A stretch of 64,000 bases of DNA from Lutjanus erythropterus (Eukaryota; Chordata; Actinopteri; Lutjaniformes; Lutjanidae), in contig CM034594.1 in assembly GCA_020091685.1 (NCBI GenBank), forward strand, positions 42,729,250-42,793,249, written 5' to 3'. Below the pieces are notes generated by a model. It was not told where the DNA came from and searched no databases. It worked only from the letters and a program-made list of their open reading frames with translations. This document shows, piece by piece, positions 4,891-58,380 of this stretch. Numbering within the stretch: the stretch's first letter is position 1; each line of letters starts with the position of its first letter. The position numbers and the translations under genes are program-made.

Positions 4891-5406
4891 ACCTGACACG
4901 CCAGATGGTTTGTTACACAGGAGCATCTGGGAAGTCGTCCTCAGAAATGGTTTGGAAAAAGGCAGGCACTTTCAAAAAACACTTGGCAGGTGATTGTATG
5001 AACTATCTGTATTGAATAAATACTGTCCAGTCTCCAGTATCTATGCTAGAGTTTTCTCCATGGAAAAGATGTTTGCACTCTTCTCCCGACCAGCTTTGGC
5101 AAGAGTTTGATTTATCAACTGGTTCTGCTGATAGAAACCTGACAAACCGGATTTGTTACACAGAACTGAGGGATTTTTCGTGTGATGTTGTAAATCCACA
5201 TCGCAATCGCAAGGTTTCTCTCCAACGATGTCATATGGTTGATTGATCTGATTGTTTGATGTCAGCTAGTGTTAGACATGACAGACAGATGGTTTGTCCA
5301 ATCACCTGCCAAGTGTTTTTTTTTTTAAAGTGCCTGCCCTTTTCCAAACAATAAGTAAGGACGACTTCCCAGATGGTTCTGTGTAACAAACCATCTGGTG
5401 TGTCAG
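4891..5406 (+). mobile_element. Helicase-derived repeat family, copy 1 (composite, inverted ends)
   Basis: This copy is bounded by the same terminal sequence in opposite orientation: 'acctgacacgccagatggtt' at 4891 and its complement ending at 5406. The ends plus their inner flank (TTGGCAGGTGATTG and its complement) form inverted arms of roughly 100 bp. A third, degraded terminal sequence lies at 5138-5172. Between them, 5053-5139 reads as a RecQ-like helicase segment, FLHGKD, then LLPTSFGKSLIYQL, then a stop. This contains the Walker A box (GKS). The 5' end seen in other copies is absent and replaced by an inverted 3' end, so the copy is a rearranged foldback. Confidence 0.75.
5053..5142 (+). 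pseudogene. RecQ/DExH helicase motif I remnant in copy 1
   Basis: The translated segment contains HGKD, then LLPT-x-FGKS, then LIYQL. RecQ-family helicases have this arrangement at motif I (hydrophobics-PTG-x-GKS-hydrophobic-YQ), where the Lys and Ser bind the nucleotide phosphates. The usual Gly after PT is Ser here. The frame opens just after a TAG at 5047 and closes at a TGA at 5140, so only about 29 residues survive. It cannot be functional. The same segment recurs in copies 3 and 5 with other defects, which argues against chance similarity. Confidence 0.65.
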
Positions 5407-6869
5407 AGTTTGTTCAGTCATCACATCACCTACAGTATATGGAACTTCAGTCATGTCATATCAGGTGACAGTGTATGGAGGGATATCGTAAATCCTTCAG
5501 CCAGGATTATAATTTTCGCATCTGTAAGCGTGCTAGGGTCCACCTGACGTTAATTTAGTCATCAGAGGGGGTATGTATAAGCTCTGCATACCTAAAATTT
5601 GTTGTGCCCACTTGCTGATCCTGTAGATGCTAGTCTACTGCCATGTGGAGAACACAGTTCACAAAATGTAAAATAAATAAATAAACAAATAAAAGATCCA
5701 TTCTCCACTACAGTACGTAAATGGCATGGCTTTTATTAACAAATACTTTTCACAGTCAAAGTGAAGTGCCATTACGTGGATATGGACCAAACTTACAATG
5801 GCTGTGAGCCAACGAGCCATAATCCCAGGGTGTAACATATTTTACAATCTACACAAACCTGTGTCAAGTTTTAATGACATCTTTGAATTATAGAAAGCTG
5901 TTTCTTATAAGTGGTTGGTCCAGTTGATATCCAGTTTTGTACCCTGATATGGCTAATCTACTATGATGATGAATATCGGGAAACTTTTTTTGAAGTGAAT
6001 ATGTAATGCAAAAAAAAACTGAATAAATAACAACTAAAAAACTACTGCAAATGTTTTTTGACTGTGACAAAAAAAAATAAAATATGCATCTTTCAGATTT
6101 TTTCAATCAATGCAACATTTAGCCAAACCATTTCTGCACAACAAATTCTTCAAACAAATTCCTCCTCCCAGTGGTACCACTAATGTCATAAATTATTACT
6201 TTTTAAATCTGATGAAAGGAATCTCAAAATCTGGACCACATGCTCTGGCCACAAGCCTTAGCTAGAACGTTAAGTTAGGTTACAATTAGTGCACGCACGA
6301 TATGTAGCCTGTATGCGTATAGTTCATACTGGCTGTAAAAAGCCATCAGTGCCCGGACCACAGAGTTGCTTTACATAATGTTTTCTTACCCTCAAATACA
6401 GTCATGAATAAATAACATTAATGTGTTATGCTCAATATATTTAGTTATGTGCTGTCATTTATTTTTCTGGTGTACCCAATCCCTTAACCTGCCTCAGTGA
6501 TTGCTGGAGTCGCTGTCAGCAGCTTGTTGCTTTCAATCACAGCTGGAAGTAAGGGCATATAAATACACTGTAGCCAGTTAAATAAGTCATGTTCATTGGG
6601 AAATGTCTGTGATTGTGGCTTCAGCCCTTAATCAAAACACAACATCTTGTGGCTGCATTCAGCCCGCTCTGCGGCCTACTGTCAGTGGAGGAGTTGGTAC
6701 ATCTCCCTCTTATGCACTGATTTTGAGAAACTTAAGATTTACCACGGGTGTTCTTCTATCAAACTCAAATTTATCTGTGGTGCAAACATGTGAACCTAAT
6801 ATTAAGTGAGACCGTGCTAAGAAAGTTTTAAAAGTGTGATCACCAGCAGCAGTAAAATTCCTACTGTAC
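5407..6869. other. AT-rich unique DNA, no gene seen
   Basis: The stretch is mostly AT-rich with poly-A runs near 5690 and 6008. Short frames at 5888-6106 and 6603-6904 encode no recognisable domain. No repeat was matched to another place in the window. Confidence 0.5.
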
Positions 6870-7100
6870 TCTACATCGAAGGCCCAGGACAGTGTCCAAA
6901 CCATACAGTGTTAACGGTGTGTGTGTCGGGTGACATAAAGCAGAGGAGGCTGGGTAGTGGAAGGGAGTTGCAGGCCTCTCTGCCTCTGTAATCTGGCCTG
7001 ATTTATAGAAGCTAGCCCTGCTCTCCCCTTCCACCTCCACACTGACACACTGGGCCTCCTCCGCTGGAGACAGCCTGGCGTCCACACTCACGCGCGCACG
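6870..7100. promoter_or_regulatory. Repeat-poor, GC-richer block, candidate regulatory DNA
   Basis: Sequence complexity and GC content rise relative to the flanks, with phrases such as 'aatctggcctgatttataga' and no repeat match. It stops at a (CA)n tract. The call is inference from composition only. Confidence 0.2.
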
Positions 7101-7128
7101 CTCACACACACACACACACACACACACC
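7101..7128. repeat. (CA)n microsatellite
   Basis: About 13 uninterrupted CA units follow a short CG/CA mix at 7089-7100. Confidence 0.9.
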
Positions 7129-7630
7129 CAGGACACTTAACGCAGAAGCGGCCATGCGCGTAGACACATGAACATACTCCAGCAGGATCGTCTCAGTTGC
7201 ACAGTAGTGCACGCAACCAAACCACATGGGCCCATTGCTTAACCAAATGAACACCAGATACAGAAACAAAAGGCATTTAAGTGTCTGCGTGCCGTCAAAG
7301 TAAAATAGAGAATAAATCTACACCAAGATTTAAACTACATCAATTAGATAATGATCGATTAATGCCCATAGGAAAATCTGTCTGTTATATCAGCAAAACA
7401 ACAACAAAAGAACACAGAAAAAGAACAAAATGAAGTAATATATTTCTGTATATTAATTACAGAGGAGCTTAAAACTCCTCAAAATTCTCAATCACACTGA
7501 TTAAAACTTGGTCATTTAACTTACTGTGTTTAAAAACAGAGTACTGCAACTGAACTTGTCGGATGCATGTTAATATTATTCCCAAAATTCCATACAAGTA
7601 TGAAATAAAAGAGCTACAAGGATGTCACTA
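7129..7630. other. Unique AT-rich DNA, nothing recognised
   Basis: No coding, repeat or RNA signal is seen. Confidence 0.5.
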
Positions 7631-8165
7631 AACCACGGGTTCCCGAACCTCTTCAGCTCAATATCCAAAATAGAAATGTGGTATTTCTATGGGACCCAAA
7701 CTTACAAAAATACATCATGAATTGCTATAACATCTACATGAACAAAATGATGAAGAACACAACAAACCATGAATTTATGTATATATATTTTTTTTTAAAT
7801 TACAAAAGCATATCACAGGAAAAATCTGATCCATTGAGCTGAGTTACTCACACTTCATAACAAACTTGCACTGTCCAAGCTGAATGCTTTTAATTTGAAA
7901 CTGATACAGGAAGTGTTGAGTTTGTATTTGTATTTGTAACAGTGTAAAGCAGTAACTTTAACAGGTCAAACAGGCCCACATTTCCCATCATGCCTTGACT
8001 GAGTAGTTGGTTAAGGTTAGGCCTGGACAATAAAACAATAGTGATATCAATATATATATATATCTGCCTGTCACTAGTTGAGGAAATGCTTTATACATTT
8101 TACTCTGTCAATTGGCAACTGAATTAAAATGAGTCTGTGACCCATTTTGGGACCCGCCGCCACCA
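7631..8165. repeat. Degraded dispersed repeats (two types, nested)
   Basis: The left part ('cacgggttcccgaacctctt' near 7636) and the right part ('cccattttgggacccgcc' near 8140) resemble the two ends of a common fish element, but this is from memory. Within it, 'ggcctggacaataaaacaa' and a TA run at about 8025-8065 look like the end of another family ('ggctgggcaataaaac' type). Both are worn and incomplete. Confidence 0.35.
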
Positions 8166-8773
8166 TAAAAGATGCCACTTAACTGTTTTTAAAAAATACA
8201 CAAGTACAGTGGTGGTCTCAGTCCATCTGAGGGGCAGGGGTGATTAAAAGAAAAGGGCACCAGCTGTAAGTGGTGGTGCACCAGCGTGCTATGTTGCATT
8301 TTGTTGTATGCTGTCCACCAGAATGGCACTTTATTACGAATTGTCCACTGGACGGGCAACTCATTACATTTTGTCCACGTTATCACATTGTCTTGGACAC
8401 TGTGCCACTCTTAAGGACACATTAATGTACTTTATCTACCATGGGGACATCCAACAGGGCACTTTTGTGGCATTTTTTCGAACATGTGGTGATTGCTCCC
8501 TTGTCCTATTTTACTGGTCCCTGTATTGGACCAGTAAAATACTGTATTTTGGCATGTATTTATTGGGTGTGTGTAACTCTGCAGTTGGTCACCAGTATTT
8601 AGAGTGCTTTGATTGGTGGAAAAGCATAATTTAAATTGTTTACACCATGTTGTCAGTGACAAAGGCCAAAACCTCGACAGGACAGAAAACAAATTGAAGC
8701 CACGCAATAACGGATAAAAGACTCAATGGAGACACAATATTCAAACGCATTAGGCTAGCAGACTGCAACACCT

Positions 8774-8775
<2 letters not shown>
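8166..8775. other. Unique DNA with a 14-bp perfect hairpin and short duplicated phrases
   Basis: The phrase 'ttgtccac' recurs at about 30-bp spacing between 8305 and 8380, suggesting a decayed short tandem. A perfect 14-bp inverted repeat is at 8507-8541 (listed separately). The frame at 8308-8634 has no recognised domain. Confidence 0.4.
8507..8541. repeat. Perfect inverted repeat (14-bp stem, 7-nt loop)
   Basis: TATTTTACTGGTCC at 8507-8520 is followed by a 7-nt loop and its exact complement at 8528-8541. No T run or second arm suggests a terminator or microRNA precursor; the stem is short for a miRNA. Confidence 0.85.

Positions 8776-8811
<36 letters not shown>
8776..8811. repeat. (GT)n microsatellite
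   Basis: Eighteen uninterrupted GT units. Confidence 0.95.
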
Positions 8812-8812
<1 letters not shown>

Positions 8813-10089
8813 TACATGTGTGTATACTATGAATCACAGTGTATGGACAGGTGTTTACAGTGAAGCTGGGTTATCTGTCTCCATTACACCACCACGGCTC
8901 AGCCTCCCAGGGCCATTATCTACTCAGACCTGCCTAAACACACACACCCAGAGACAGGAAGCCCCACATGCTAAAGGCAAGACCCTTTACACAAGGCCAT
9001 GGCGTGAGCACATAATGGGCCTTTCTGGGGTCTGGGGGAGCTCTTGACGCAATCCAACACCCAAACAGAGGAGACCCAAAAAAAACAGCATTTCCTTCAG
9101 CCACAGTTTTTCTTTGATCTGCATTAACATCAACACACGTTCACATACAGCTGTTCATCATAACTTTGAACATCCAGACTCACTTAGTTCTTGCTAATAT
9201 TGACTGTTGATGTTGTGGCTAATGTTTTGAAGCGGAGCCACAATCTGACCCAAGGTCAATTTAACATCCTCTTACAGTGGTCAGATGTTGTGATGAAGCA
9301 CAGTGAGCTGGTTCCTTATCAGTTTTTGCAAACAATGTTCTGCTGAAATCCAGTTAATCCTGTGTGACACATGCTCTGAGTAAGATCAGATAGTACACAT
9401 GTGTGCCTATGCTGGATTTGTGATCAAGTACACAAGCATTTACCGTTTGTTTACAGATTAGCCATTAAGCATTAGTCATGTCACCCGTTTTGGACACATG
9501 CTGGGGGTTTCTTCCGGATCACAGCAAAGGAACACCCACCCTCAGATACTTTAACACTTTGAGATATTATCATGTTGTGATCATCAATTGCTTCCAATAG
9601 CTATTTCTTGACAGAAAGCCCGAAATATATGATTCCACACTAAAGCCATTTTTTCCGAGACGGCAAATTCACATGATCATGACAACCAGCGAGTTACTTT
9701 TACACGCATATGACTGCTGAAATAAGTAGAGAATTGTCTTAGTTTGACATTTGGGGTGTTGCAAATGGAATTCTGGTTATTATGCTGTTAAATGCATGCT
9801 AAATTCAACCATGAACATTAGAAAGTGTTTCTGTCCTGTGTGATAGCACTTGTTCAGGGTGGACGGATGTTAGCAGGGAAGCACTTCAGGCTGCTCTTGG
9901 CATTTGAAGACTATTTGGTACCTCACAGTAGATCACACAACTCTCTCTCTGTGATCACAGAGAAACAACAGTTTCTTCAATATCTTCTTTTCACACATCA
10001 CTGGAAGTCTTTCTTAAGAAGCAGAAGACTGGGTAGGCCTGAAATACACACATGTGCCCACATACACATAGTGGGAGAGGTGATGGAGC
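8812..10089. other. Unique non-coding DNA, with a possible conserved patch at 8880-9060
   Basis: The patch at about 8880-9060 is richer in GC and complex ('cagggccattatctactcag'), and could be regulatory. The rest is AT-rich with no repeat match and no gene signal. Confidence 0.4.
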
Positions 10090-10202
10090 TGCCACATATA
10101 TATAATCAGGCACCCCAAACTGTTAGGGGTTTGGTGCCTTGCTCAAGGGCACCTGAACAGCACCCTGCAGCCTCAATTGGTCTGTCTGAGAGGACTGTCT
10201 AA
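10090..10202. repeat. Possible dispersed repeat fragment
   Basis: The phrase 'ttggtgccttgctcaagg' near 10130 is one I associate with many fish genomic sequences. Only this core is convincing, and I cannot place boundaries. A short frame (9825-10202) runs through it without a recognised domain. Confidence 0.3.
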
Positions 10203-11121
10203 CAGCAATATAAAGCTGTGAAAATATTTTAAACATAGCATATTTCTCCAAACTGACGAACATCTACTGAAAGTAATCAATAAGTACCTCATACAACCCT
10301 ACTTCAAATAATCGGATCTATCTTTTAACTGTGACGCCACTCCGAGGTCTCAAAGAAGAAATCTTTTGGCACAAAAATGTCCAAAAGTGCTACTGAATAT
10401 CACCTTCTAATGCTGTCCATGGGCAGTTCCAATCCCAAAATATTCATATCAGCCTTCTAAAAGTCATATTGTTTGAACCCCTGCCTGCGTAAAAGTGTGT
10501 GGGAGTGTAAACATTGTGGTAACCCCCGGCCAGGTACTGTCTGGTCTGGTATATGAGGTGGTACCACCAGTCTCCCACTGTCTTTTAATTATGAGTAGAG
10601 GTGGGGGGAGCCATTTTAATGAAAATCGGCCACATCATAAAAGCAGATTTGACCAGGTTCATCCACAGTTCAGGCTCAAGGACAGTAAACACACAGATAA
10701 TGTGGACCGTACCACTCACAACTGCAAACACACTGGATAAGATTAGATTGGCTGAAACTGCTGTGATTCCACATGGGAAAGTTGATGAGTGTAGCATCAA
10801 CATACTAGGTTACATACAAAGTACAGGGGGTAGATTTAAGGATAACTTCACCACCATGTCTTCAACAAAAAGTGCATGAAGATGTTCACATCTTGATAAA
10901 GCTTTCTGTCTATAACCTTCATTCATCCAGTGAAGTTTTGCTCAGAGCAATTCTCTTTTTTAAATGAAAGCACTGTTACATAGTCTGTTACATTCACACA
11001 TGGAGACTGTACAGTACAACCACAGTCCTGTGGTCTGTTGGCCACTGAGCAGCTCCACTGGAGTGGTTCAAAGGGCACAGCAGCAGAAGGCAACTGTAAA
11101 GAAGGAGGGGCAAGGTTACCT
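10203..11121. other. Unique non-coding DNA, nothing recognised
   Basis: Four overlapping short frames (10495-10879 on both strands) show no domain. No repeat was matched within the window. Confidence 0.45.
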
Positions 11122-11402
11122 TTCGAGGCAGCTGAGAATCACACGAGAATCTGTCTGGAAGGGCAATTTATTATCTAATTATCTGTTTGTGTCCGCACCA
11201 AAAGTGGTGTGGAGGGACTACTGGCAGCTATGGGTGTGGTTATGAATGCGACGATGGCGAGAAACATCCACGGAAGCACTGATCTGATTGGCTGAAGTTA
11301 GTCTGTGTTAGACGAGATAGACAGACGTTTCATTCAATCACCTGTCAAGTCTTGTCAACTTTGCAGGTGGTTCTGTGTAACAAACCATCTGATGTGTCAG
11401 GT
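11122..11402 (+). mobile_element. Helicase-derived repeat family, copy 2 (reading frame fully deleted)
   Basis: The 5' end begins with 'ttcgaggcagctgagaatca' and continues into the family leader ('gtgtccgcaccaaaagtggt', then 'actactggcagctatgggtg'). The leader then joins directly at 'gaagcactgatctgattggc' to the 3' tail, which ends with the terminal sequence 'gtaacaaaccatctgatgtg' then 'tcag'. The helicase start and Walker A segment are missing. Copy 7 (58091-58380) has the same junction, so both belong to one deletion subfamily. Confidence 0.75.
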
Positions 11403-11960
11403 GACCTTAAAGCACCAGTTATATATACATCCTAGGTGTATACAAACGTGCTGAAGACATGAAAGTTGGTATGCTGGTATATTTGACAATTAAAAGTGAA
11501 ATTCCAGCAGTATGAGATGAAGGAAAATTATAAAAAACACTGAAATATACAAAGGATCAGAATAATATGAGCAAATTTAAAAATAGGAAGTGAATTTGCT
11601 CTGGGGTATCCATTTCTCAAACAGCTATTGATAAAGCTAATGTTAAAAAAAAATAGACTTGGATGGCCTAAGACTTTACTAAAACTTTATGTTGGCTTCT
11701 CCTTTCAATCATCACCAGTTTACTGACAGAGTATTCATAATATGCAAGGAACTAAACTATACAGACACAAATAAACGATTTCCCATGTTGGTGAGTGAAA
11801 AGCACCAACAACATGCTGAATGTCGCACAGCAGCGAGTGTATTTATGGCCTTGTGCATAGTACCCGGTTATTGTCAAGAAGATCAAGATGGATGGAAGAG
11901 GGATGGAGAGACATTGGATGGAGAGTGACAGCTAGAGTTCAGCCACTGACTAATTTTAAC
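11403..11960. other. AT-rich unique DNA, nothing recognised
   Basis: Short frames at 11689-12047 have no recognised domain. No repeat match. Confidence 0.5.
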
Positions 11961-12480
11961 ATCCATCCATCCCCATCCATTACCTCTCTGATGGAGGGAG
12001 GGAAGGGAGGCGACCTAATTGGTGGGAAGCTGCCCAGAAGCGCCTGACCTGAAGCAGGATGAGGGCTACAGTGTGTGTGTGAGTGTGTGTGTGTCCAGAG
12101 GGGGTCGGGGGAGAAGGCAGCATCCTGGCAGGACATGAGGGACTCGGTTCCCAGCAGCGCTAGCTCCTCTCCTGCTCGGGCTCCATAAGTCTCTCCCTGC
12201 TGGGTCAGTGCTGCCTTCCTCCGGGGGATTCCCACTTTTTCCCAAGGCTATGCCCAGCTCGCTCTGACTCTCTCTCCTTGCCAAATGACCCAGAGTTCGG
12301 CCACTTGCTTCCCTTATCTGTCCTTTCCCAGGGCTGTGGTACTCTATCCATGTCCCCCGTCTCTGTCTGTCACCCTCTCTGTCATCTGATGCACAGTAGT
12401 CACTGCATCTACAGGATCAGCTTAATGATGGCTTGTCTTACTGGAATTAGCAACAGTGCATGCTGTCTCACAGGCATGTG
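11961..12480. promoter_or_regulatory. GC-richer repeat-poor block, candidate regulatory DNA
   Basis: The block is GC-rich for this window, with phrases such as 'ggcgacctaattggtgggaa' near 12009 and a short TG run at 12071-12094. Overlapping frames on both strands here (11939-12481) do not resemble known proteins. Inference only. Confidence 0.22.
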
Positions 12481-13591: not shown

Positions 13592-13608
13592 GCAAATTAA
13601 AGCCTTAG

Positions 13609-14814: not shown

Positions 14815-14817
<3 letters not shown>
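14193..14817. other. Unique DNA, CT-rich then GA-rich
   Basis: A pyrimidine-rich patch (14600-14670) is followed by a purine-rich one (14690-14760) just before a long TG tract. Frames here (14390-14913) are composition artefacts. Confidence 0.45.
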
Positions 14818-14877: not shown

Positions 14878-14878
<1 letters not shown>

Positions 14879-20521: not shown

Positions 20522-21080
20522 ATAAAACAATACAGCTACACCAAACCAGACTCTCTGGAAAGAAAAATCACCATTTCTTCAGGGGTTTTTAAGAAAAGGG
20601 GCATGCATTTTGTAAAATCTAACGCATCAATTTTCTTTTAGGTGCAGGGCAAAAAATAAATGAATGAAAAAAAGTGATGAAAAGATTTATGCAATTTCAC
20701 AGAAGAAGAGCGGTTTATTTTGTCCTCTTCTAAGAAAAAAAAATGAAAATTTTAAGTATTTAATATAAAATGCTGTTTTTGTGTAATTTTTGTTATTTTC
20801 ATTTTTTTAGGAGTCACCAAAATGAAGAAAAAAAGTCTCACAAAACCATTTTTTAAAAATATTTTTCAGGGCGCACTGCATGGGTCAAACAGTCTCAGTA
20901 AAAAATCAAAAATGTAACGATCCTTCAAAAACACACCAATGCACACTGTAAGGTTCGTATAAAATTAAGATGCCTTTATTTTACATGGCAAAAAGACTCA
21001 AAAAGAGTTTTAAAAAATGACCAACGTGTATCGACCAACACAGGTCTTCATCAAGGTCAAACAGTAGTGACCAACAGAAA
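20522..21080. other. AT-rich DNA with a weak repeat fragment at about 20930-21070
   Basis: 'caccaatgcacactgtaagg' and 'aacacaggtcttcatcaagg' recall a fish repeat containing 'ggtcttcatcagg', but boundaries are unclear. The rest is AT-rich. Confidence 0.35.
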
Positions 21081-22330: not shown

Positions 22331-23035
22331 ATGAAACTGCTGGATGCTCACTTACATGTGTTGGGCAGTTGCATAATGAGCAAGAATTAGCATAGTCTCC
22401 TATATGGACAATATTTCAGCGAATGCTTGGCTGATTTGGGCGATATTGGATTGGTTTTAGGGGTTACTGGGGATGCTGAATTAATTTTTGGCATTTTCAA
22501 AATTCAAAATGGCTGTTTAAACTGGAAGTAGCCGCAGTCCAACTCTTGGTGGGCCGATTTTGATGAAGTTCCAGTCAATTTAGAAGCTTTAGAACACACT
22601 GAGCCCAAAGGTTCTTCTGTTTAAAATCTGTTCCAGGACTCACATGTTGTCACTGTTAAAATTGACTGCACAAATAACTTATTGACATAACTTAAACTCA
22701 ATCATAAATTGTAAGATGTGAACACAATGAACTAAATGACATTCAAAATGTATTTAAATTTATTTAAAACTCAAAATGGCTGTTTTTACCAAAAGTAACC
22801 ACATTTCAACCACTGGCGGGCTGATTATAATGATGTTTCAGTCAATTTAGAAATTTTAGAGGATGCTGAAAATAGATTTATTGATACCTCAGTTATCAAT
22901 TGTAGGATGTTTATGAACAAAATAATCTAAATGATGTAGAACATGTGTATTTTAATTCACAGCCCAATACACTCTGAGGTGACTCACAACTGGATTACGG
23001 AGTTAAAAATTTTCGCTGTTTCTCCTACTGAAGGG
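22331..23035. repeat. Direct duplication, period about 267 bp
   Basis: Copy 1 (22497-22605) and copy 2 (22765-22875) share 'tcaaaatggctgttt', 'gggc(c/t)gatt', 'gtcaatttagaa' and 'ttttagaggatgctga'-type phrases in order. The copies have diverged. It lies immediately left of helicase-family copy 3. Confidence 0.6.
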
Positions 23036-23500
23036 TAACCTGACAGGCCAGATGATTTCTTACATAGAACCGTTTGGGAAGCTGTCTTTAGAAACTGTTT
23101 GAAAAGCTCTATCTATTGAAAACTGTTTATCACATCTAACACAGCCAAACATCAACTAATCAGATCAAACTCTTGCTGAAGTCAGTCGGGAGAAGAGTGA
23201 AAACATCTTTTCCATGGAGAAAAGCCTCCAGTTCCATTCTTTACTCTTCTTTCAGTGAAGAAATACTCTGAAATAAGTGATGTTATCACAGTATCTATGC
23301 TAATGTCTTCAGGAGCTGCCATTGTTTCTTCATGACAGGTCGTTTCAGCGGGCACTTCTCGCTGTCATCACACCTAAAACCACGCCCGTAGCTGCCAGTA
23401 TATCCTGCTAGGACACTGATTGTCTACACAAACAGATAACATGAAGCCTGGCTAGCTGGATTCTTGCATGATCTCGTGCATCCAGCTGCCTCACGAGATA
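23036..23500 (-). mobile_element. Helicase-derived repeat family, copy 3 (most complete)
   Basis: In the reading-frame orientation (minus) the 5' end is 'tatctcgtgaggcagctgga', forming a small hairpin with a nearby 'cacgagatca'. A leader with 'gcagctacgggcgtggtttt' follows, then a start codon at 23322-23320, the helicase N-terminal segment and motif I, and the 3' tail ending 'ggcctgtcaggtt'. The 3' terminal hairpin is worn. After 'gcaagagtttgat' the sequence jumps to the tail ('ctgattagttgatg'), so everything after Walker A has been deleted. Length about 465 bp. Confidence 0.75.
23168..23322 (-). pseudogene. RecQ-like helicase N-terminus and motif I remnant in copy 3
   Basis: From the ATG at 23322 the peptide starts MAAPEDISIDTVI and continues to about residue 19. 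A frameshift follows, then an in-frame TAA in the restored frame, then FLHGKD, then LLPTDFSKS. The start matches the intact N-terminal stretch in copy 4 (MAPPEEVSVDIAI) and the motif I segment matches copy 1. The Walker A glycines are replaced (D and S), so it is non-functional even apart from the frame defects. Known RecQ proteins carry a Q-containing motif just before motif I; 'SLKEE' then stop occupies that place. Confidence 0.6.
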
Positions 23501-24200
23501 AACTTAAGGCAGCCATGTTGCAGGATGTTTTGACACTCAGTCAAACTCTGGGGGCGTGTTCCAGTGGGAAAGTGACATAAGTACAGACCCTCTATTAAAA
23601 ATAAAAGTACATTGGTAACAGACAGTGAATGGTCATGTGCTGTCAGACTGCTGCTGTCAAATTAGCTGTTTCATCCATTTGGCAGTATTTCAGGACATGT
23701 TTTTTTGTCTAGTGCCAACATTAAGTGCCAATGCACTAACTGAAGGAGAAAATAAAGGCCTTGACAAACTCCAAAAAGGACAAAGACATGCTCATGGTTC
23801 ATTTTATACTGACACACAGGATCATGGTGTGTACAATCCATGTGGTAATAAATTTTGGGCAGCAAAGATGTCTGCTGAGACCCTTGTCTAGATGTAGAAA
23901 TCATATGGATCCTTGTGACTACACAAACATGGAAAATAAAATTTGAGCTTTGAGGTTAGGTTTGTTGGACCTTCATGCAGGAGTTCATGTCCGATCACAG
24001 TCTGGGACTTAATATAGGCTTTGTTTTTAACATTCTCTAATAATGATCACTAAAGTTTAACACCAAAGACTAAAGCAAAGATGTTGAAACAAAAAAACCA
24101 TCTACTTACTTTTCCTGCTCGGTGCCTGTGGGAGATGAACACGTATAGATCTGTCTTTACTGTCAGAATGTCACGTACATGTGTCATGGATAACACAGGA
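23501..24200. other. Unique DNA, no gene seen
   Basis: Frames at 23625-23946 on both strands have no recognised domain. No repeat matched. Confidence 0.45.
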
Positions 24201-34159: not shown

Positions 34160-34370
34160 GAATGAAGTATCTGATCCTGGTCTTTGGGGCCCACTGCCCT
34201 GTATGTTTTAGATGTTTCTGAACTGAATCAAATGATCAGCTCGTCATTAAGCCTCTGCAGAAGCCTGATAATGACCTGTTCATTGGAATCAGGTGTGTTG
34301 GAGCAGGGAAACATCTAAAACATGCAGGGCAGTGTGAACCCACGGACCAGGACTGGTAAACACTGCTCTA
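34160..34370. mobile_element. Short foldback element
   Basis: The left arm (34172-34216, 'actgccctgtatgttttaga') and right arm (34309-34358, 'ctaaaacatgcagggcagt') are complementary over about 45 bp, including outer 'cctggtc' and 'gaccagg'. The centre holds a second pair around 'gcctctgcagaagcctgat' and 'gaatcaggtgtgttggagca'. I recall this as a common fish MITE. It ends about 30 bp before helicase copy 4. Confidence 0.65.
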
Positions 34371-34401: not shown

Positions 34402-34653
34402 ATGTGAGGCAGCTGGATCCATCTTGCCAGGCTTCAAGTTACCCGTTTGCATCTGCACCAAGTGGTGTATCAGCGTCCTAGGAGGTACTACTGGCAGCTA
34501 TAGGCGTGGTGTTAGGTGTGGCGCCAGCAAGAAGTGTCCATGGAAGCAACTCATCTCAAACAAACAATGGCGCCTCCTGAAGAGGTTAGTGTAGATATTG
34601 CAATAGCATTACTTATATCAGAATTGGAGAGAATTTCTTCATTGAAAGATTCC
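34402..34653 (+). mobile_element. Helicase-derived repeat family, copy 4 (5' half only)
   Basis: The 5' end 'atgtgaggcagctggatcca' and leader ('tactactggcagctataggc') match copies 2 and 3. The start codon at 34567 and about 29 codons follow. After 'attgaaagat' similarity to the family stops, so the 3' part, including motif I and the terminal hairpin, is missing. Confidence 0.7.
34567..34653 (+). pseudogene. Helicase N-terminal remnant in copy 4, frame intact
   Basis: The reading frame starts MAPPEEVSVDIAIALLISEL and continues ERISSLKD without a stop. This is the cleanest version of the N-terminus seen in copies 3 and 6. In copy 3 the equivalent of SLK lies shortly before FLHGKD and Walker A, so this segment precedes motif I. 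The open frame runs on into unrelated sequence to 34704. It encodes no complete domain. The helicase assignment rests on the linkage seen in copy 3. Confidence 0.55.
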
Positions 34654-38850: not shown

Positions 38851-39013
38851 AACTTGACAAGCCAGATGGTTTGTTACACAGAACCATCTGGTAAGCTGTC
38901 TTGAGAAACTGTTTGGAAAAGGGCAAGCACTTCAGTCAGTCACATCAAATTCTGGCTAAAGCCGTTCAGGAGAAGAGAACATCTTTTCCACAGAGAAAAG
39001 CCTTCAGTACCAT
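38851..39013 (-). mobile_element. Helicase-derived repeat family, copy 5 (3' half, best terminal hairpin)
   Basis: The 3' end is the cleanest in the window: CCAGATGGTT, a 10-nt loop, then AACCATCTGG at 38863-38892, a perfect 10-bp stem. Inward comes the tail 'aaactgtttggaaaagggca', then a worn motif I segment. On the minus strand this reads KAFLCGKD, then a one-base defect, then LNGFSQN in place of PTGFGKS. The Walker A Lys is lost. The 5' half is missing. Confidence 0.75.
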
Positions 39014-39769
39014 TCTTCACCAATTCTTAAAAATGATATCATATCAAGTTTGATGTTATGGACGTCATTCTTTGTTGATTTTGCAACTAGCGCATGTGCA
39101 GTACCAATGAGACTGTGGAGCTGGTGGCTGAAATACTGGAAAACTGGGCGGTGCTTATTTACGGCTTTTCCTTGATTCATGTTCAAAGCTCAAAGGTTCA
39201 CTTCCTAACTTTCAGAACTTTCAACCACCTCTCACTGCCTTCGTTCAGCAAATGACTCAGATAACAACACTGCTATCTAGTGGTTGGGGGTTTAACCAAC
39301 AAAAAATCAACCGCTGCAATGAATCTTTACTATGCTTACTTTTACTTTACGTATCATGATAGAGTGTTTTTGAGAATCCATAGTGTATCAATATTTTCTT
39401 ACACCTGTCAAATGGAAGGAGAACGTACCCCTTGTCTTAATGATGGTCTTTGGCATCAGAGGTGAATGTCCTCCTTGATGTCCACTTCGTTTTCTGATGA
39501 TGAGGTGATGAAACGTGGTTGAAAGCACGCCAGTTAAACACTTTGGCGAGTCAAACTGTGTTTGGTCTCGATATAAGGTAATAGCTCAGCTTTCGAGGAG
39601 GCCTCCAACTGGCACCGTAAAGCTGTGTAACTTTACTGAGCTCCATGTGGCCCCAGGGACTCCCGTCTTATCAGCTGAAGGCCCTCGCTGCCTTAACACC
39701 AGCCTCTGTCATACACAGCTCTTCAGTTCAAAGACAACACTGCATGGGAGATCAAAGCATGGCCAATCT
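39014..39769. other. Unique DNA, no gene seen
   Basis: Frames at 39280-39832 have no recognised domain and no repeat was matched. Confidence 0.4.
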
Positions 39770-44331: not shown

Positions 44332-44640
44332 AACCTGACATGCCAGATGGTTTGTTACACAGACTCATCTAGTACATCGTCCTGAGAAACTGTTCTTTGC
44401 TCTTATTTCAACTCTCCAGTTTTGATATAAGTCATGCTATCACAGTATCTATGCTAACCTCTTCAGAAGCCACCATGGTTTGTTTGAGACAAGTCACTTC
44501 CATGGATACTTCTCACTGATGTCACACCTAAAACCACGCCTGTAGCTGCAAGTAGTCCCGTCTAGAATGCTGACTGGCTGCACCACTTTTGGTGCGGACA
44601 CAAACTGATAACTTGAATGATTCACTCATAATCTTGTAAA
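44332..44640 (-). mobile_element. Helicase-derived repeat family, copy 6
   Basis: The 3' terminal sequence 'taacctgacatgccagatgg' starts at 44332 (minus orientation end), with a worn hairpin ('gactcatctagt'). The leader 'ggtgcggacacaaactgata' and 'aaaaccacgcctgtagctgc' match copies 2, 3 and 7 in reverse. A start codon at 44476-44474 gives MVASEEVSIDTVIA, then TGA. The sequence then joins the 3' tail directly after 'actggagagttga', a third deletion form that lacks motif I. Confidence 0.75.
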
Positions 44641-50477: not shown

Positions 50478-50516
50478 AAGAAGAAGAAGAAGAAGAAGAA
50501 GAAGAAGAAGAAGAAG
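50478..50516. repeat. (AAG)13 microsatellite
   Basis: Thirteen perfect AAG units. Frames through it give poly-Lys or poly-Phe and are not genes. Confidence 0.95.
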
Positions 50517-50790
50517 GAGAAGAACAACAGCACTTTGTGGTACTTTAAAGGTGCATTCAAGTGGTGTCAGAATCATAGGAGAGATGACTTCCTGACTAGG
50601 AAAATTCTGGTCCACCCCACAAGGTGGCGAAAATTTTGGTGCATGACTTGCTAAGTTGTCATATATGAAGAAACATGGTGGACAAATCTAAATTTTTGGT
50701 TAATAAAATAATAAGTCAGGTGAAGCAGTACTGGTTTTAGGGAATGTACAAATGCAGCAACAAATCAAACCAAAATCACTTTGTAATGTA
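50517..50790. other. Unique DNA, nothing recognised
   Basis: No signal beyond ordinary sequence. Confidence 0.4.
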
Positions 50791-52130
50791 AAGCTCCAAC
50801 TGTTTCAGCAGTCTCAGCCAACCCATCACCCAGATGCTACAACAACAAGCCAACACTACCCGATCCTTTGTAGCATTTATTTTGTTTCCACATTATAACC
50901 GAAAAGCTCATAAACACACCAGAAGAATGACTTTCAAACTCGGGAAATTGGACCATCCGAAGAGCATGTGAATGCAGCATAACTGCATTTTATATTTTCA
51001 CAAGTAAAGCTAAATCAAAGAACCCAGAGAACCGAGCTTCAAACTGTTTCAGCAGCCTTAGTAACATGCAGAGAAGGGAAGTAACTAAGTACAAATATTT
51101 TGTTACTGTACTTAAGTAGGTGTTTTAGTACTTTACTTGATTATTTATTTTCAGATGACTTTTTTTTACTTTTACTCCCTACTGTACTCCCTATTGTACT
51201 TTCTACTCTTTACGTTTTCAAAACAGGCTCGTTAATTTAGTTTTAAGGCATTTGAGGGGAATTATTGATTACTTTTAGTTGGCATCATTGCGCACATAGA
51301 AAAGCCGGTTACTTGTGTACCCATCAATGCATATCATACACAACAGCTGCAATGAGATGAAAACTATGTAAAAGACGTAACAAGGAGGAAACAGTTTACA
51401 ATGAAAAATGGCATAAAAAACAAACACAAACAAACAAGACAAAAACAGCATAAGATGAAAAAGATATAACAAGATGTAAACTACATAATAAGATGGAAAC
51501 AATGTAACAAGACATAAACAAAAACAATGTAATGAGACAAAAACAACATAAAAGACAAAACAAGACAAAAAAGACATCACAAAACGAAAACAATGCAACA
51601 AGACAAAAACAACGAAACGAGACATAAGAAGACGAAAAGATGGAACAAGACAAAAATGGCGTAAAAGATGTGACAAGACAAAAAAAGAAAAAGGTGAGGT
51701 TGTTAGTTTTTCACAGAAACAGGCAGTAAAAATGTCCCTCAGAGGACAACTTTTTACTTTTACTCTTGGAGTACATTTCAGAGCCTGTACTTTTTCACTT
51801 TTACTCAACTTAAAAAATTTTATCTGTATTTCTACTTTTTTTTCACAAGTATCAGTACTTCTACTTGAGTAACTGATATGTGTATTTTTACCATCTCTGG
51901 CAACAAGAATCTTCACTGAGATGCGAGTCTCAGCCAACCCACCACTACAACAACAATCCAACGCTACCTGACTCTTTGTATAGCGTCCACGTTGTTTCCA
52001 CATTACAACTTAAAAGCTCATAAACACACCAGGAGAACGGCTTCCAAGCTTGGGAAATGGGACCATCCGATGAGCATGTGAATGCAGCACAACTGCGTTA
52101 TACAATGCCATAGGTTAGAACCCAGAGAAT
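50791..52130. repeat. Tandem duplication (about 246-bp unit) split by an inserted element
   Basis: Unit 1 starts 'aagctccaactgtttcagca' at 50791. Unit 2 starts 'agcttcaaactgtttcagca' at 51037, is interrupted at about 51068, and resumes at about 51902. The halves match in order: 'gtctcagccaaccca', 'tgtttccacatta', 'aaaagctcataaacacacca', 'accatccga(a/t)gagcatgtg', 'aacccagaga'. The interrupting 833 bp is copy B of the element at 45747. So the duplication came first and the insertion second. Confidence 0.7.
51069..51901 (-). mobile_element. Non-autonomous element with internal minisatellite, copy B
   Basis: The ends 'agaagggaagtaactaagta' and 'tgtatttttaccatctctgg' and the shoulders ('tgtacttaagtag', 'ttttcaaaacaggctcgtta', 'tttcagagcctgtacttttt') match copy A in reverse. 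The internal tandem (about 51370-51690) has a roughly 19-bp 'aacaagacaaaaacaatgt' type unit and is longer than in copy A. The longest frame in the window (51275-52003, minus) reads through this tandem and is not a gene. The target duplication is unclear. Confidence 0.7.
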
Positions 52131-52559
52131 CCTTCACTACATCAGTGTGAAAACAAGATGGACTGATGTAAAGAGCGATAGCAACAGAAAGAAAACAAAA
52201 GGACAGAGTCCAGGGAGGCTGGTCATATGAGCCAGTGGGCAGAAGGAGGGAAGATGGGAGCTGGGGGTGAGAAAAGGAGGGCATGTCACCCTCCATCAGC
52301 ACAACGAGCTCTCTCTCCTTTTTTCTGTTCAACACTTTTTTTTTTCCACCACCAGCAAGCTATTTCCAACCCACAGCATGTGTGTGCGCGCGCCTGTGTG
52401 TTTGAGTGAGTGTGTGCTGGAGGTGAGGTTTGGGGCTGAGGCCATTAAAGCTCTGTTAAAACACTTCTGATGCTGTTGGCTGATGCTGAAGCAAAAGGAG
52501 AGTGAAAAAAAAGAGAGGAAGTGAGACAGTGAGGGAGGGAGCGCACACTCAGCGGCTAT
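52131..52559. other. Unique DNA, nothing recognised
   Basis: A short TG/CG run at 52380-52420. Frames at 52018-52607 lack domains. Confidence 0.4.
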
Positions 52560-53220
52560 CTGGGCCCGCCCAGCAGTCCGCTGGCAGCCTGTCAATACTA
52601 TGAGCACAGAGGTGCGAGATGAGTCAACAACCTAATTCTAACATCAAACTTTCATGGGCAGCAGAGGGGAAGAGCAGGATGGGGAGATGTGGGGAGAGAT
52701 GTTTGCTGTTAACGCTTTCTCCATCACCTGACCTTCACTCCTCCAAACCTTTTAAAAACCCTTTAAAAACCGACCCCTTTTACACACCCGCACACATCCA
52801 GTGCCGCCGTACACGCCCGGGAACACACGCGGGGTTGCACTTTTAAAGTTCTGACCTGCGGCTGAATTACATTTGGAGCGTTTTAGCAAGATATAATAGT
52901 GACCCTCTCACTCTGTCTCGCTGCCCCCCACACTCTGCAGAAGCTCTCTCGCCTAGACGGGGGAGAGTGCCAGCGGCTTTATTTATTAAATATGGCCTGA
53001 GAGAAGAGGCAACATGGGCGAGCTGAGAAACCGTTTTAAGAGACTGGCTTTTAATGGCTTTCTGACACGCTGGGAGGGTAGCGGTTCTGTGGTGGCTTGG
53101 AGGGGACACCTCTTGAGTGCCGAACGGTGTTTGTCTAAGCTTGTTGTCCCACAGTGTGAGTGTATGGGAATGTGCCGTGGTTGTGAGGAGGATTGGGACG
53201 ATAAGATCATACAGTGAAGA
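52560..53220. promoter_or_regulatory. Repeat-poor block, candidate conserved non-coding region
   Basis: A high-complexity, GC-richer block. Notable phrases are 'tttatttattaaatatggcc' near 52979 and 'agactggcttttaatggctt' near 53041. The antisense frame of 159 codons (52867-53346) does not resemble a known protein and overlaps a second open frame, as happens in GC-rich non-coding DNA. Confidence 0.3.
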
Positions 53221-54031
53221 GGACGTGCCACAGTAACACTCAATACTATTATCAAAAAGAGAGCGTAACACTTGAATCACACTTGTTTGACCAGAGGTGG
53301 TGATAACTACACTAGGGATTTGATGATTATGCAATACCTCGCACATAAGTTTTTAAAGTCGGTGTAAAGCAGCAATAAATGTGTGTTCTGAGGTTGTTAC
53401 ACCACAGTAAGGTGTTATTAACCACCCAACCAAATTTGAGTGATCAAAAAATATCTCTCAAAATCATGGAAAACATAACCAGTTTGCTCTGAAATGCTGT
53501 GTGCGTGTCCACTCTGCTGTCTCAGTGTCTTAAACCATTATGACCTAAAAACCACCTGAAACATGGACGCTCCATCTAGCAGCTTTATTGGACATGTCCA
53601 GACATGTTTGAGCCACCAGAGCCAGAGGACGGTGACAGGATGGTATTTTTTTCCCTTCCATGTCAAGTTGTTGGAACTGAAGTGAGCTGAAGTGAACTGC
53701 TGGGCTGATCTGGTCCGAAAGAATTGCTGAAGGTACGTTTGTAACCGACCGCTGGGGAAGCTGCGGGTGGGGATGCGGTGTAATTCATGAGTCCGTTCGT
53801 GGTGTCTACATAGTGATTGGGGGACCATGGCTCTGCTGCATCACCGAGCCATGTTTCAGGTCCACCCCAAAAATCCCAAACAACAATTTAATGGTTTAAC
53901 TCACACAATTCAGCTCTACATAGTTCTTTTCACTTGTTTTCAGAAACTATTTTCTTACATGTATTAAGCGTTTAGAAGAAAAAACACATTACAATTTCCT
54001 TTACAAAGACTTTAAAGAAATACCCAAGCTG
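53221..54031. other. Unique DNA, no gene seen
   Basis: The antisense frame at 53538-53828 (96 codons) has no recognised domain. No repeat matched. Confidence 0.4.
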
Positions 54032-54710
54032 GGACCATGTCAATTGTTTTCTCAGTCACAAAAAAGTCTCAAGTCCTGATTCAAGACCAGCAAGTCCCAA
54101 GTCATAAAGTTTCAAGTCCTACACAAGTCATAATGCAAATGTGAGTTTCCAGTCTCATTGATTTACAAAGTTACTTAGCTGTTAAGCTAATGTTAGCTAT
54201 GCATTAGCTTGCTAAGTATGTCAATATTAGCTTTAACTTAGTGTTCTCTGTGCAACTCCAAATGTCGAACGAAGTTTGACGTTGTTGTCTCCATTTGTAA
54301 TTTTCAATCCACATGTGTTTCATACCACGATTCATTTTTTGTTGATCACCACATAGTTTTTATGTGTGAACAAAATTATCTTTGGCGAAATTTTTTCCAA
54401 CTGGAGCTCAGTAATCTAACATTAGTTCTTCATGGTTCTCTCGTACAAACATGCTTGTTTGGATTGGTTAAAAGTGGACCTGGGAATCAAGTGTTGACTT
54501 GCTGATAATGAATAGTGTTCATGTTAGTTGATTCAGGAAATGAAGGGAAATTAATTGATTTATGGATTCACCCTTTTTTCTTTAAATAACAGACTTTGTA
54601 ATCTTTGAACTCAAAGGGAAGTATAAAATACTGTATTTTCAAGTCACTGAGTCAATGGTGTTTAAGTCCAAGTGACTGTTTTTTGTCATGTCAACTCTAA
54701 ACTCTTGACA
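54032..54710. repeat. 'Caagtc' family element, both ends present but worn
   Basis: The left part (54032-54150) repeats 'caagtcc' phrases; the right part (54630-54700) has 'ttcaagtcactgagtcaatg' and 'aagtccaagtgac'. The same family is at 25693-25815. The interior is AT-rich and non-coding. Confidence 0.5.
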
Positions 54711-54765
54711 TATGACTTCTCTCATTATTACCAACATGGAGGAACTGTGAATAGAGCAATGTGTA

Positions 54766-54902
54766 CACACACCTAAGGGCAACTTAAAGTCACCAATGAA
54801 CATGCATGTGTTTGGACCGTAGGAAGAAGCTGGAGCACCCGGAGAAAACCCATGCAGACACAGGAAAAACATGCCAACTCTGCATAGAAAGGCCCTGGCC
54901 CG
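54766..54902 (-). repeat. SINE/L2-tail fragment, minus orientation
   Basis: In reverse this matches the body of the SINE at 20129-20510 in order: 'ggccagggcctttct', 'gcatgtttttcctgtgtc', 'catgggttttctccgg', 'cattggtgact', 'gcccttaggtgtg'. It lacks the pol III boxes and tail. It is clearly older than the intact copy. Confidence 0.7.
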
Positions 54903-56261
54903 ATGTCAGAGATAAAGGTAGTAAACAGCGATGGCATCTCTCAGAGACATAGAGGCAGGCTTGTCTGCATCATGTCAGTGGTCAGATCCCGGACTGACTG
55001 CAGTGATCTAGGCTGGGAAAGTAAATATTTTCAGTGAATACCCTCTGAAACGCCCCTGCTGTACCAGCATCACCTGTGGCAAAAAATAAAAGAGTTCTTC
55101 TGGGAAGCTCCACTGTGCATTTATGAAAAAATCTAAAAATGTGTTTTTGGAGAATAATCCCACATTCCCTGGATTGAAAAGATTTAAATAATTATAATGA
55201 GAAATTATAATATCATAGCATTCAAGTCTTATATCTAATTCATCTTTCTGTCAATGCTACATTCCCCTTTTTTCCTCCTTTGGATCTGTTGTCTTGTCAC
55301 CGCTGATCTCTACTCTGAAAGATGAAACTGCATAAAAAATACAATAACTTAAATAACCAATGAGGTACATTAATCACACACCACACAGACTATACGTACA
55401 TGCCGAATGGTGATAATACAAAGAAAAGGAGCTGAGGTTAAGTAGGGAATTCAATTATTTATGACCACATAAAAATATCTTCGAGCCCCATTTCATTGTT
55501 GCTGGTCTAAAGCCGGGTTACATTGAGTCAGTGTCAGTCAGTGCCAGGCAGGCTCATCCACTATTTATATGATGGAGGTTCTTGAACACAGCTAGTGAAT
55601 GTCTCTTATTATAGTTATGATCATCTCACACATCTCAACATTGTAAAGCGGAACGAGATTCTACAAAAAAAACAACAAAAAAACCCCAAAAAAAACAAGG
55701 ATATAAAACCTGAAGGAGCTTACATTAGGAATTACATAATTGATCTGGACTTAGCCTGGGTTGTACCAACAAGGATTAATTATTAAACCAGATTAGATCA
55801 TGGTTCAACCCAATTACATTATGTTGCACCACACCTATAAACTACCCTAAAATTATGAAAGAATAAATTCAAACCTCTCTTTAAACCTTGGTTTAGTCTT
55901 TGCTCTAAACTAAAATCAAAATTATTTCTGTTGAACCAAATCAAATTCCATTTTAAGATGTCATTTCTGTACTAATTTTAAACTGACAGTTGAGGGAGTT
56001 TTTTTTTAAACTTTTAAAATTGCTGCCTTTTTGAGATGGATTGAGCAAAATCATCAAATTCCTTGGAGAAAGTTAAGGGACTGACTCATCCCAACTGATT
56101 TTCACAATGTGCCTCAGTTTAAACAGAGTTAAAACGTTAAAACAGTTTGCCTGTTGCTGCCAGCCAGTCTCTATTGTCTTACTGTCCTGTTGTCTGTTTT
56201 TTGATTTCATTATTTGTCTATATTGCTCCTTGAATTGGGCCACTAAGTTTTTCTCATAATC
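54903..56261. other. AT-rich unique DNA, no gene seen
   Basis: A-rich runs lie at about 55662-55700. Short frames lack domains. No repeat matched. Confidence 0.45.
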
Positions 56262-56665
56262 TAACATTCTGTTAACATTTTAGCTAGCTAGTAAACAATG
56301 TAACATTTTGTTGGCTAGCTGGCAAGCAATGTAACATTTGATTAACTTTTTAGCTAGCTAGCCAACGATGTAGTGTTTTGTTATCTTTTTAGCTGGCCAG
56401 CAACTTTTGAGCTAGCTAACTAGCAAACAATGGGATGTTTCATGAACTTTTTAATTAGCTAGCAAACAATTTAACTTTTTGTTAGTTAGCTAGCAAGCAA
56501 TGTAACATTTGGTCAGCTTTTTAGATAGCTAGCAAACAATGTAATGTTTTGTTAACCTTTTATCAAGACAGTGAACAATGTAATATTTTGTTAACTTTTT
56601 AGTTAGTTAGCAAACAATCAAATGTTTTGTTAGCTAGCTAGCAGGCAATGTAATGATTTGTTATG
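56262..56665. repeat. Degenerate minisatellite, about 30-40 bp unit
   Basis: About ten units of the type 'gctagctagcaaacaatgta' followed by 'acattttgttaacttttta' are arrayed head to tail. The invariant 'caa(t)g' core falls at about 56298, 56328, 56368, 56430, 56469, 56499, 56539, 56578, 56615 and 56647, so the period alternates between about 30 and 40 bp. The GCTAGCTAGC motif is palindromic. Confidence 0.8.
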
Positions 56666-58090
56666 GAATAATATTTTTTTCTCCCCTTTTTATACTTACT
56701 GGATCCCAACAGCACAAAAATGTATTAATTTGTTGAATTTATTTTTACATCAACAAACTTGGATATACTAAAATGAGGTTTTTAATTTTGATTTAATCTG
56801 ATTGATTTAATTTTAAATCTGGATTTACTTATTTTAAACCTAGTTTTGCTGAACTCAGATTAGAACTACTCTTAGATTAAATTAATCTTTGTTGATGTGA
56901 GCCAGTGTTAGTGGCCTAATAATATAATGATGGCCTACATGCTGTTTTACATGATGCTCATTTTAGGAACAAAAAATATATCTTTGCAAGGAGAAACAAT
57001 CAAAGACATTCTTGGGCAATAAAAATGTCAAGTGAACATAAACTGATTATCCGCTACTGGTCACTTCAGTACACAAATGTCCAGATATCCAGCAGGCCTC
57101 TGAAAACTATTGTATTTCTTTAAACATATTCCACAGTGATGTATTAAGTTGAGTCATGCTTAACTTTGATTTATGGAAGTTGAGGCCCACAGTCAAGCAC
57201 AGACAACTCAGCCACCACAACACTGTCAAATCCGTCACGTTGCCAAGTGGAGGAACACACCCTGGTTGGTAAATCACATTCTCTGTGGTTGCAAATGTGC
57301 GGGAAAAAGCTGACAGCTAACTCCATCTTGAATCTCCACTCTTCTTTGAAGGGCCAACTGTAAAACATCTCATCAGGGCCCAGTGGTCGGGATTTCAGGC
57401 AAACGAGGACGACAGCAAAGCAAACAAACAAGGTTGGAGGGTTTCTCCAAATGTTCTTTGATGGCTGCGTGATGGGCAGGGTGGGAGACCAAAACGGAGG
57501 GAGGGAGGATTGAGGAAGACAGGGAGGGACAGCATGGGAGGAAAGACTGGGAGTGTTGACAGAGGAGAGGGATGGTTTGGAAAGTGTGAGGTAGAAATAT
57601 GAAGAGATGAAAGGATTGAGAGAGGACACAGATTAAATAGTAAATAGCAGAGGAGGTGTCAGGGCTAGGTTTGACCAGTGAGGATTTTGGGGGCCAACAC
57701 AGACTATTTTTGGACAGAGGCAGCTGACAGCTGACATTTTCTGCAGGCATCCAGTATATAAATTTGGCCATTTTATTGCCAAAAATTACAGGACACACAC
57801 AAAATTTTTTACAATATTTATCTGACAGATGAAAAGTAGTACTTGGTCTGATATTACCAGTAGCTGGTGGCTAATGTTAGCTGAAGTTGGCAAACTTTCA
57901 ACCAGGATGTCTTTAAAACAACTGACTTCAGAGAATAAAGGGAAACTCACAGGCGTCACTGCTCAGCACCAGCGATTTACTAAGTTTGTCTCACTTCACG
58001 ATCATTTTGGGTGTCGCTGTGGTTTTGCAGTTAAGATGCTAACCATGAACTGTAATATTGTCATTTTGAATCCGGTCAGGGGTCTTTGTT
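56666..58090. other. Unique DNA, no gene seen
   Basis: AT-rich to about 57170, then more complex. Two overlapping antisense frames (57171-57798) are Pro/Ser/Leu-rich and reflect a GGGAGG-rich patch at 57495-57560. No domain is seen. Confidence 0.4.
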
Positions 58091-58380
58091 AACCTGACAC
58101 GCCAGATGCTTTGCTTCACAGAACCACCTGCGAGTTGTCCTTGACAGAAACTGTTTGGAAAAGGGCAGGCACTTTCAAAAAAACATTTGGCACATGATTG
58201 ATTGAACCATCCGTCTAACACGGGCTAACTTCAACCAATCTGATCAATGCTTCCGCTGACGCTTCTCGCTGTTGTGACACCTAAAACTACACCCGCAACT
58301 GCCAATAGTTGGATAACTAAGTCTGGCAGGATGGATTCTCACATGATTTTGTGATCTCACAAATCCAGCCGCTGTGCAAA
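58091..58380 (-). mobile_element. Helicase-derived repeat family, copy 7 (reading frame fully deleted)
   Basis: The 3' terminal sequence 'aacctgacacgccagatgct' starts at 58091. The tail 'aaactgtttggaaaagggca' follows, then 'cgggctaacttcaaccaatc' and 'tgatcaatgcttccgctga', the same leader-to-tail junction as copy 2. The leader 'acacctaaaactacacccgc' and the 5' hairpin region ('cacaaatccagccgctg') complete the element. At about 290 bp with both ends, it and copy 2 look like a distinct short subfamily. Confidence 0.75.

Follow-up and report, generated by a model that had tools for sequence, protein, structure and literature searches.

A dispersed repeat family of Lutjanus erythropterus with 9-bp target-site duplications and a RecQ-type helicase stub, likely derived from an AcademH-type transposon

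A stretch of 64,000 nucleotides of the Lutjanus erythropterus genome (assembly GCA_020091685.1, contig CM034594.1, positions 42,729,250 to 42,793,249), here called the window, contains a dispersed repeat family that carries the beginning of a RecQ-type helicase. A preliminary description of the window had noted seven related copies with common termini. BLASTN with the seven places as queries against the window and two end profiles, E5 and E3, which were built from the window copies themselves, agree on one repeat family at all seven places and in both orientations, and the limits of the copies could be corrected (Table 1). In the window, seven termini were found with the E5 profile (E values of 1.6e-50 to 3.8e-17) and five with the E3 profile (1.9e-76 to 1.7e-26). 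Four further E5 matches were weaker (0.00026 to 0.35); one of them is nested in copy 1, and another, at 20593, is probably due to chance. Both ends are kept in copies 2, 3 and 7, and one end or a portion of an end is lost in copies 4 to 6. An Rfam scan of the window at gathering thresholds gave nothing.

Read inward from the GGTAA end, the coding remnant of the element comprises ~60 residues and reaches as far as helicase motif I (LLPTGFGKSLIYQLA). From 51 fetched copies a majority sequence was derived, MAAPEEVSVDTVIASVISELESISSLKEEQRTTLKAFLHGKDVFTLLPTGFGKSLIYQLA, which lies behind a leader of ~197 bp counted from the E3 end, has an in-frame upstream ATG and opens with its own start codon directly after the leader. 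This majority peptide matched the NCBIfam families recQ_fam (4.4e-7) and RecQ (8e-6) and, with 25.3 bits just below the cut-off of 26, Pfam DEAD (1.4e-5). Its 26 PDB matches comprised 20 named RecQ, Q1, Q4, Q5 or Bloom (RecQ, 9.4e-5), three named only ATP-dependent DNA helicase and three other helicases. Matches of the unedited copy 1 peptide were weaker (recQ_fam, 0.003; DEAD, 0.0015); 19 of its 23 PDB matches were RecQ-named, three were ATP-dependent DNA helicases and one was an ABC transporter, with a best E value of 0.09. The copy 3 peptide alone had no PDB match, no helicase match and, in Pfam, one weak unrelated match only. None of eight shuffles of the two peptides from the window hit a Pfam family, and two of these shuffles, also run on NCBIfam, had no match there either. 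The copy 1 and majority peptides therefore stand apart from shuffled sequence, and the earlier assignment of motif I to the RecQ type is borne out by both the profile and the PDB matches. Judged by these matches, the stub is the start of a RecQ-type (superfamily 2) helicase, kept only up to motif I.

In the window, the translations contain the N-terminus that copies 3, 4 and 6 had been said to share, and the motif I segment FLHGKD...LLPT.F.KS is indeed seen in copies 1, 3 and 5, although decayed in copy 5. Copy 3 had been thought to link the N-terminus and motif I in one element; both are present, but in different frames and with one stop, so no window copy encodes both parts intact. No helicase sequence was seen on inspection of copies 2 and 7.

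The element starts with TAACCTGACACGCC and finishes with GCCTCACAAGGTAA, in the register TAACC...GGTAA, and its terminal inverted repeats (TAACC/TTACC) are very short and imperfect. Among 52 E5/E3 end pairs from the fetched loci and the window, a set without L035, L059 and L060, which duplicate other loci or window copy 1, 21 belong to copies with both tips. Their spans are 289 to 649 bp in 20 cases and 1,493 bp in one (L081); taken as a single long element, the latter has 1 of 9 duplication bases in common between its flanks, and it is probably two elements. Over 9 bp, the flanks of the 21 copies match at 114 of 189 bases; 10,000 random flank re-pairings gave 51.5 matches on average and 83 at most, and none reached the observed value. 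Position by position, 11 to 15 of the 21 copies match at bases 1 to 9 and 3 to 7 at bases 10 to 14 outward; on the inner side, the first four places match in 9, 6, 5 and 3 copies. An 8-bp duplication, our first guess, was replaced by 9 bp after these counts. The register was picked on 14 pairs, 13 of them within the 21; a match of at least 7 of 9 bases was found in 4 of the 8 copies outside the register-choosing set and in 10 of all 21 copies. Clear 9-bp duplications in the window flank copies 7 and 3. The family makes 9-bp target-site duplications and is, therefore, a transposon and neither a Helitron nor a TTAA element. Three E5 tips were folded as single strands of DNA: a strong hairpin was predicted for copies 1 and 5 (CCAGATGGTT...AACCATCTGG; z of about -4 against shuffles), and no such hairpin for the decayed copy 7 (z, 0.34). 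Two E3 tips folded less well (z, -1.35 and -2.29).

In the searched assembly (937.6 Mb, 444 contigs), tip patterns with up to 3 mismatches matched 1,515 times for E5 and 1,557 times for E3, whereas the reversed control patterns gave 0 matches each. Copy 3 as the DNA query gave 3,199 first-look candidates, of which the best 40 were scored, and the stub peptide as the protein query gave 2,633, of which the best 150 were scored. The repeat family is real, large and old. Its members are short and noncoding, share both ends among many copies and carry target-site duplications, as do miniature inverted-repeat transposable elements (MITEs). The proposal of a non-autonomous mobile family is supported. 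The E5 pattern had no match in the viral or prokaryote contigs searched, and none of 26 pattern matches to stub relatives in viral contigs was confirmed.

Substitutions in the stub are spread over the three codon positions at 0.116, 0.087 and 0.109 (0.097, 0.075 and 0.074 with CpG sites excluded), the frame is uninterrupted in 5 of 51 copies, and copies differ from the majority by a median of 15.5%. Such even divergence together with so few open frames indicates an old family with dead cargo, and the helicase stub would be functionless.

The stub ends in a small number of ways. Among 55 loci, it stops straight after KSLI in 25, continues to QLAPLV joined to the E5 interior in 12 and continues to QLAPLV followed by GTAGTAACC-like sequence in 17, and one fits none of these; the class sizes mirror the queries and not the genome (27 loci were obtained with copy 3 as the DNA query or with the RecQ profile, and 28 with a pattern in which QLAPLV is obligatory). 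A unit of ~83 bp composed of one E5 tip and one E3 tip can be aligned directly behind the stub in 12 of the 17 third-class loci (L063 to L066, L068, L071, L074, L076 to L078, L081 and L082) and in window copy 1, with a far end that is decayed in some loci. This unit may have been inserted as a nested element or may have been left behind by an aborted transposition. On visual inspection, a short repeat (TTGAT) marks the first joint and no more than a GT the second; the KSLI and QLAPLV-E5 classes could thus both have come from the third form by internal deletion, which is the order that we infer. Because the junctions sort into a small number of classes, each common to many copies and one situated at a short repeat, the idea that the family arose by internal deletion of a larger helicase element is plausible, but the parent itself was not found.

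Table 1. Copies of the repeat family in the window, with their remnants and target-site duplications
Feature	Position	Strand	Remarks
Copy 1	4889-5410	.	Fold-back: two E5 ends face each other, one on + (4889-5011) and one inverted (5410-5242)
RecQ remnant of copy 1, motif I, SFLHGKDVCTLLPTSFGKSLIYQLVLLIET	5050-5139	+	Translated, profile-matched
Nested tips-only mini-element of copy 1 (E5 tip + E3 tip), ~83 bp, degraded	5135-5217	+	Directly behind helicase remnant; E5 match at 5136-5166
Copy 2	11116-11404	+	289 bp, two tips, no recognisable target-site duplication (3/9)
Copy 3	23036-23501	- (strand of helicase remnant)	466 bp, two tips
Target-site duplication of copy 3, E5 outer side, ACTGAAGGG	23027-23035	.	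7/9 match with 23502-23510
Target-site duplication of copy 3, E3 outer side, ACTTAAGGC	23502-23510	.	
N-terminal remnant of copy 3, MAAPEDISIDTVITSLISE	23266-23322	-	
Motif I remnant of copy 3, SISSLKEE*RMELEAFLHGKDVFTLLPTDFSKSLI	23163-23267	-	Other frame, one stop; 90% identical to copy 1 over 60 bp
Copy 4	34397 to ~34647	+	E3 tip kept, E5 end gone
N-terminal remnant of copy 4, MAPPEEVSVDIAIALLISELERISSLK	34567-34647	+	
Copy 5	38850 to ~39020	-	E5 tip kept, its subterminal hairpin intact; E3 end gone
Motif I remnant of copy 5, RMVLKAFLCGKDVLFS	38969-39016	-	Decayed
Copy 6	44331 to ~44620	-	E5 tip kept, outermost E3 gone
N-terminal remnant of copy 6, MVASEEVSIDTVIA*LISKLES	44411-44476	-	
Copy 7	58090-58384	-	295 bp, two tips, no helicase remnant
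Target-site duplication of copy 7, E5 side, GGTCTTTGT	58081-58089	.	8/9 match with 58385-58393
Target-site duplication of copy 7, E3 side, GGTCTTTGC	58385-58393	.	

The window holds other repeats as well. A 237-bp fold-back repeat at 13158-13394 matches its own reverse complement at 75%; it does not belong to this family and is perhaps another MITE. A second fold-back repeat (34175-34352, ~72% self-complementary) adjoins copy 4. Inverted repeat pairs with 72 to 82% identity lie at 20210-20344/54768-54897, 46130-46327/51069-51266, 59132-59269/61293-61429 and 2267-2547/15393-15635, a direct repeat pair with 81% identity lies at 50810-50992/51926-52102, and a tandem array of 39- and 70-bp units, rich in TAGCTAGC, occupies 56258-56653.

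The best explanation, to which we assign a probability of about 0.7, is a MITE-like non-autonomous family derived from an AcademH-type cut-and-paste parent from which the stub was inherited. The parent would have been a cut-and-paste element of AcademH, the helicase-bearing lineage of the Academ superfamily, whose transposase acted in trans on both ends. Internal deletions would have taken out the remaining coding part, a few deletion founders would then have multiplied, and the parent would since have been lost from the genome or have decayed past recognition. What is seen today is a stub cut off at or just behind motif I, between defined ends and 9-bp duplications. The combination of a RecQ-type helicase with a 9-bp duplication points to AcademH: a RecQ helicase is named in Academ in an excerpt of PMC3627910, and duplications of 9 or 10 bp are given for AcademH, and of 3 or 4 bp for AcademX, in an excerpt of PMC10045372. 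According to a portion of PMC9587614, KolobokH (from fungi only) and one red-alga Kolobok carry RecQ as well, and Kolobok duplicates TTAA; the sources of helicase domains in fungi listed in an excerpt of PMC10799480 include AcademH, KolobokH and Helitron. The preliminary description had called a RecQ-type source unusual, but these excerpts put RecQ helicases on record in Academ and KolobokH, and the 9-bp duplication fits AcademH. That the family is an AcademH-derived MITE is likely, although unproven. Among the papers listed in our literature search, none that names AcademH has fish in its title and none combines Academ-H with fish, and the two fish mobile-element papers checked did not contain the word Academ. 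AcademH is said, by the title of a work by Kojima from 2020, to occur in animals and fungi.

Several observations weigh against this derivation. The likeness to AcademH is one of helicase type and duplication length, and membership is to that extent unproven. In 11 of the 21 two-tipped copies, fewer than 7 of the 9 duplication bases agree (3 of 9 in window copy 2), and the nested ~83-bp unit is not convincingly flanked by a duplication (0 to 5 of 9). The stub is less diverged (854 of 8,196 bases, 0.104) than the leader (0.163); most simply, this is a matter of sampling, since the copies were chosen by likeness to the stub or its junction, but strictly it leaves some room for constraint on the stub as the cause. 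No helicase sequence past QLAPLV was present in any copy read or profile-matched, the stub matches to recQ_fam stop by profile position 59 of 470 at E values of up to 10, and the longest open frame among the best 150 of the 2,633 stub candidates is 166 amino acids. Also, no transposase was tied to the family, and no Academ transposase profile was applied.

The recQ_fam profile, run at E values of 0.001 and up to 10, gave at the latter 50 matches from the best 47 of 115 candidates, and those that were read were host RECQ-like exons, DDX-type or Dicer-like helicases, or stubs. The weak matches read (four plus ten stretches) were stubs (L086, L089 and L099), DDX-type helicases and a Dicer-like helicase on C15, and none of these stretches resembled a RecQ remnant downstream of motif I. 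The frame of L086 continues beyond QLAELV, with a continuation unlike RecQ. L022 and L028 were rejected, since they resemble host genes of the DDX type. The RecQ zinc domain (PF16124) matched once in the genome, inside the host RECQ gene on C12. Among 100 listed exact tips of each end, six convergent pairs span 328 to 523 bp and one spans 25.4 kb, with none in between; the 25.4-kb pair looks unrelated to the family. The MULE transposase (PF10551) had 0 genome matches (its control was positive in 3 of 14 genomes), and the hAT transposase, as a positive control, had 150 scored matches in the same genome. DUF6589, taken by guess as the Academ transposase, had 0 matches, but its control was silent too and the result is, hence, uninformative; nowhere does the literature search pair DUF6589 with a transposase. 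As far as these searches reach, no copy of greater length turned up that adds further helicase sequence, a nuclease or a transposase, as had been envisaged. Since only the best candidates were scored per search, a decayed parent could be missed. With neither helicase past QLAPLV nor a tied transposase, the autonomous parent appears to be lost or unseen.

A somewhat different origin is possible, if doubtful: an undescribed RecQ-helicase lineage in which the helicase was a separate gene ~200 bp inside one end and the ends alone sufficed for movement. That the ends alone (~35 and 45 bp, E5 hairpin-forming) may be sufficient is hinted at by the ~83-bp tips-only unit inside longer copies. It is unlikely that a MITE of another superfamily captured a host RECQ fragment, as Pack-MULEs do. 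In favour of this, non-autonomous elements in general are known to capture gene fragments, the searches yielded no parent bearing this helicase, and around motif I alone host exons come closer to the stub (13 of 19 residues identical on C19, 10 of 14 on C17). However, the best-scoring host exon (C22) shares just 15 of 37 residues with the stub, which makes recent capture unlikely, the remnant has its own start codon directly behind the element leader, and the genome gave no MULE transposase match. Similarly improbable is a separate undescribed superfamily outside Academ that bears a helicase and makes 9-bp duplications. No transposase was seen, and we know of no named superfamily that combines a subterminal hairpin, TAACC/TTACC termini and a separate helicase start, but a new superfamily is not required, since a helicase and a 9- to 10-bp duplication are on record for AcademH, at least in the excerpts consulted.

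We regard a Helitron-, KolobokH- or piggyBac-type element, or a hAT MITE, as very improbable. Helitrons have a (Pif1-type) helicase and a terminal hairpin but no target-site duplication, whereas the family has 9-bp duplications and a helicase of the RecQ and not the Pif1 type. Transposases of hAT elements are abundant in this genome, but hAT duplications are at most 8 bp and hAT elements carry no helicase, whereas the duplication here is 9 bp (about the length known from MULE); no search for these ends was made in the flanks of the hAT matches. KolobokH and the red-alga Kolobok bear a RecQ helicase, but in the source excerpts KolobokH is reported from fungi only, and Kolobok and piggyBac duplicate TTAA, i.e., 4 bp and not 9 bp. 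Finally, a chance resemblance of a segment that is no helicase might be suspected from the copy 3 peptide, which alone has no helicase match, and from the best PDB E value of just 0.09 for the copy 1 peptide. The copy 1 peptide and the 51-copy majority match RecQ families specifically and the shuffles match none, which refutes this reading, and we give it practically no weight.

A RecQ-bearing transposon is itself not new, and the kind of element described here is probably already known. What is newly defined are the exact ends, the 9-bp footprint and the coding tag of a large mobile family, together with an assignment that can be tested; otherwise, its stubs could be mistaken for fragments of a "RecQ-like" gene that occur repeatedly. 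Should the assignment to AcademH be true, a cut-and-paste transposon with a helicase has left numerous deletion derivatives (>1,500 end matches) in a genome that yielded no autonomous parent. As far as the excerpts describe AcademH, the family has in common with it a RecQ-type helicase, here a stub, and a duplication of 9 or 10 bp, here 9 bp; it differs in that there is a helicase stub only and no transposase was seen. KolobokH, again by excerpt, is likewise a DNA transposon with a RecQ helicase, but with a 4-bp TTAA duplication and from fungi only, whereas here 9 bp are duplicated outside TAACC...GGTAA in a fish genome. Helitrons and other elements with a Rep-Pif1 helicase share the presence of a helicase and, for Helitrons, a hairpin near the end; unlike them, the family makes target-site duplications, and its helicase is of the RecQ type. 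Like MITEs in general, the elements are sub-kilobase, occur in many copies, have kept two ends with the interior deleted and were presumably mobilised in trans, but they are set apart by their very short, imperfect TAACC/TTACC inverted repeats and by a coding stub that can still be recognised.

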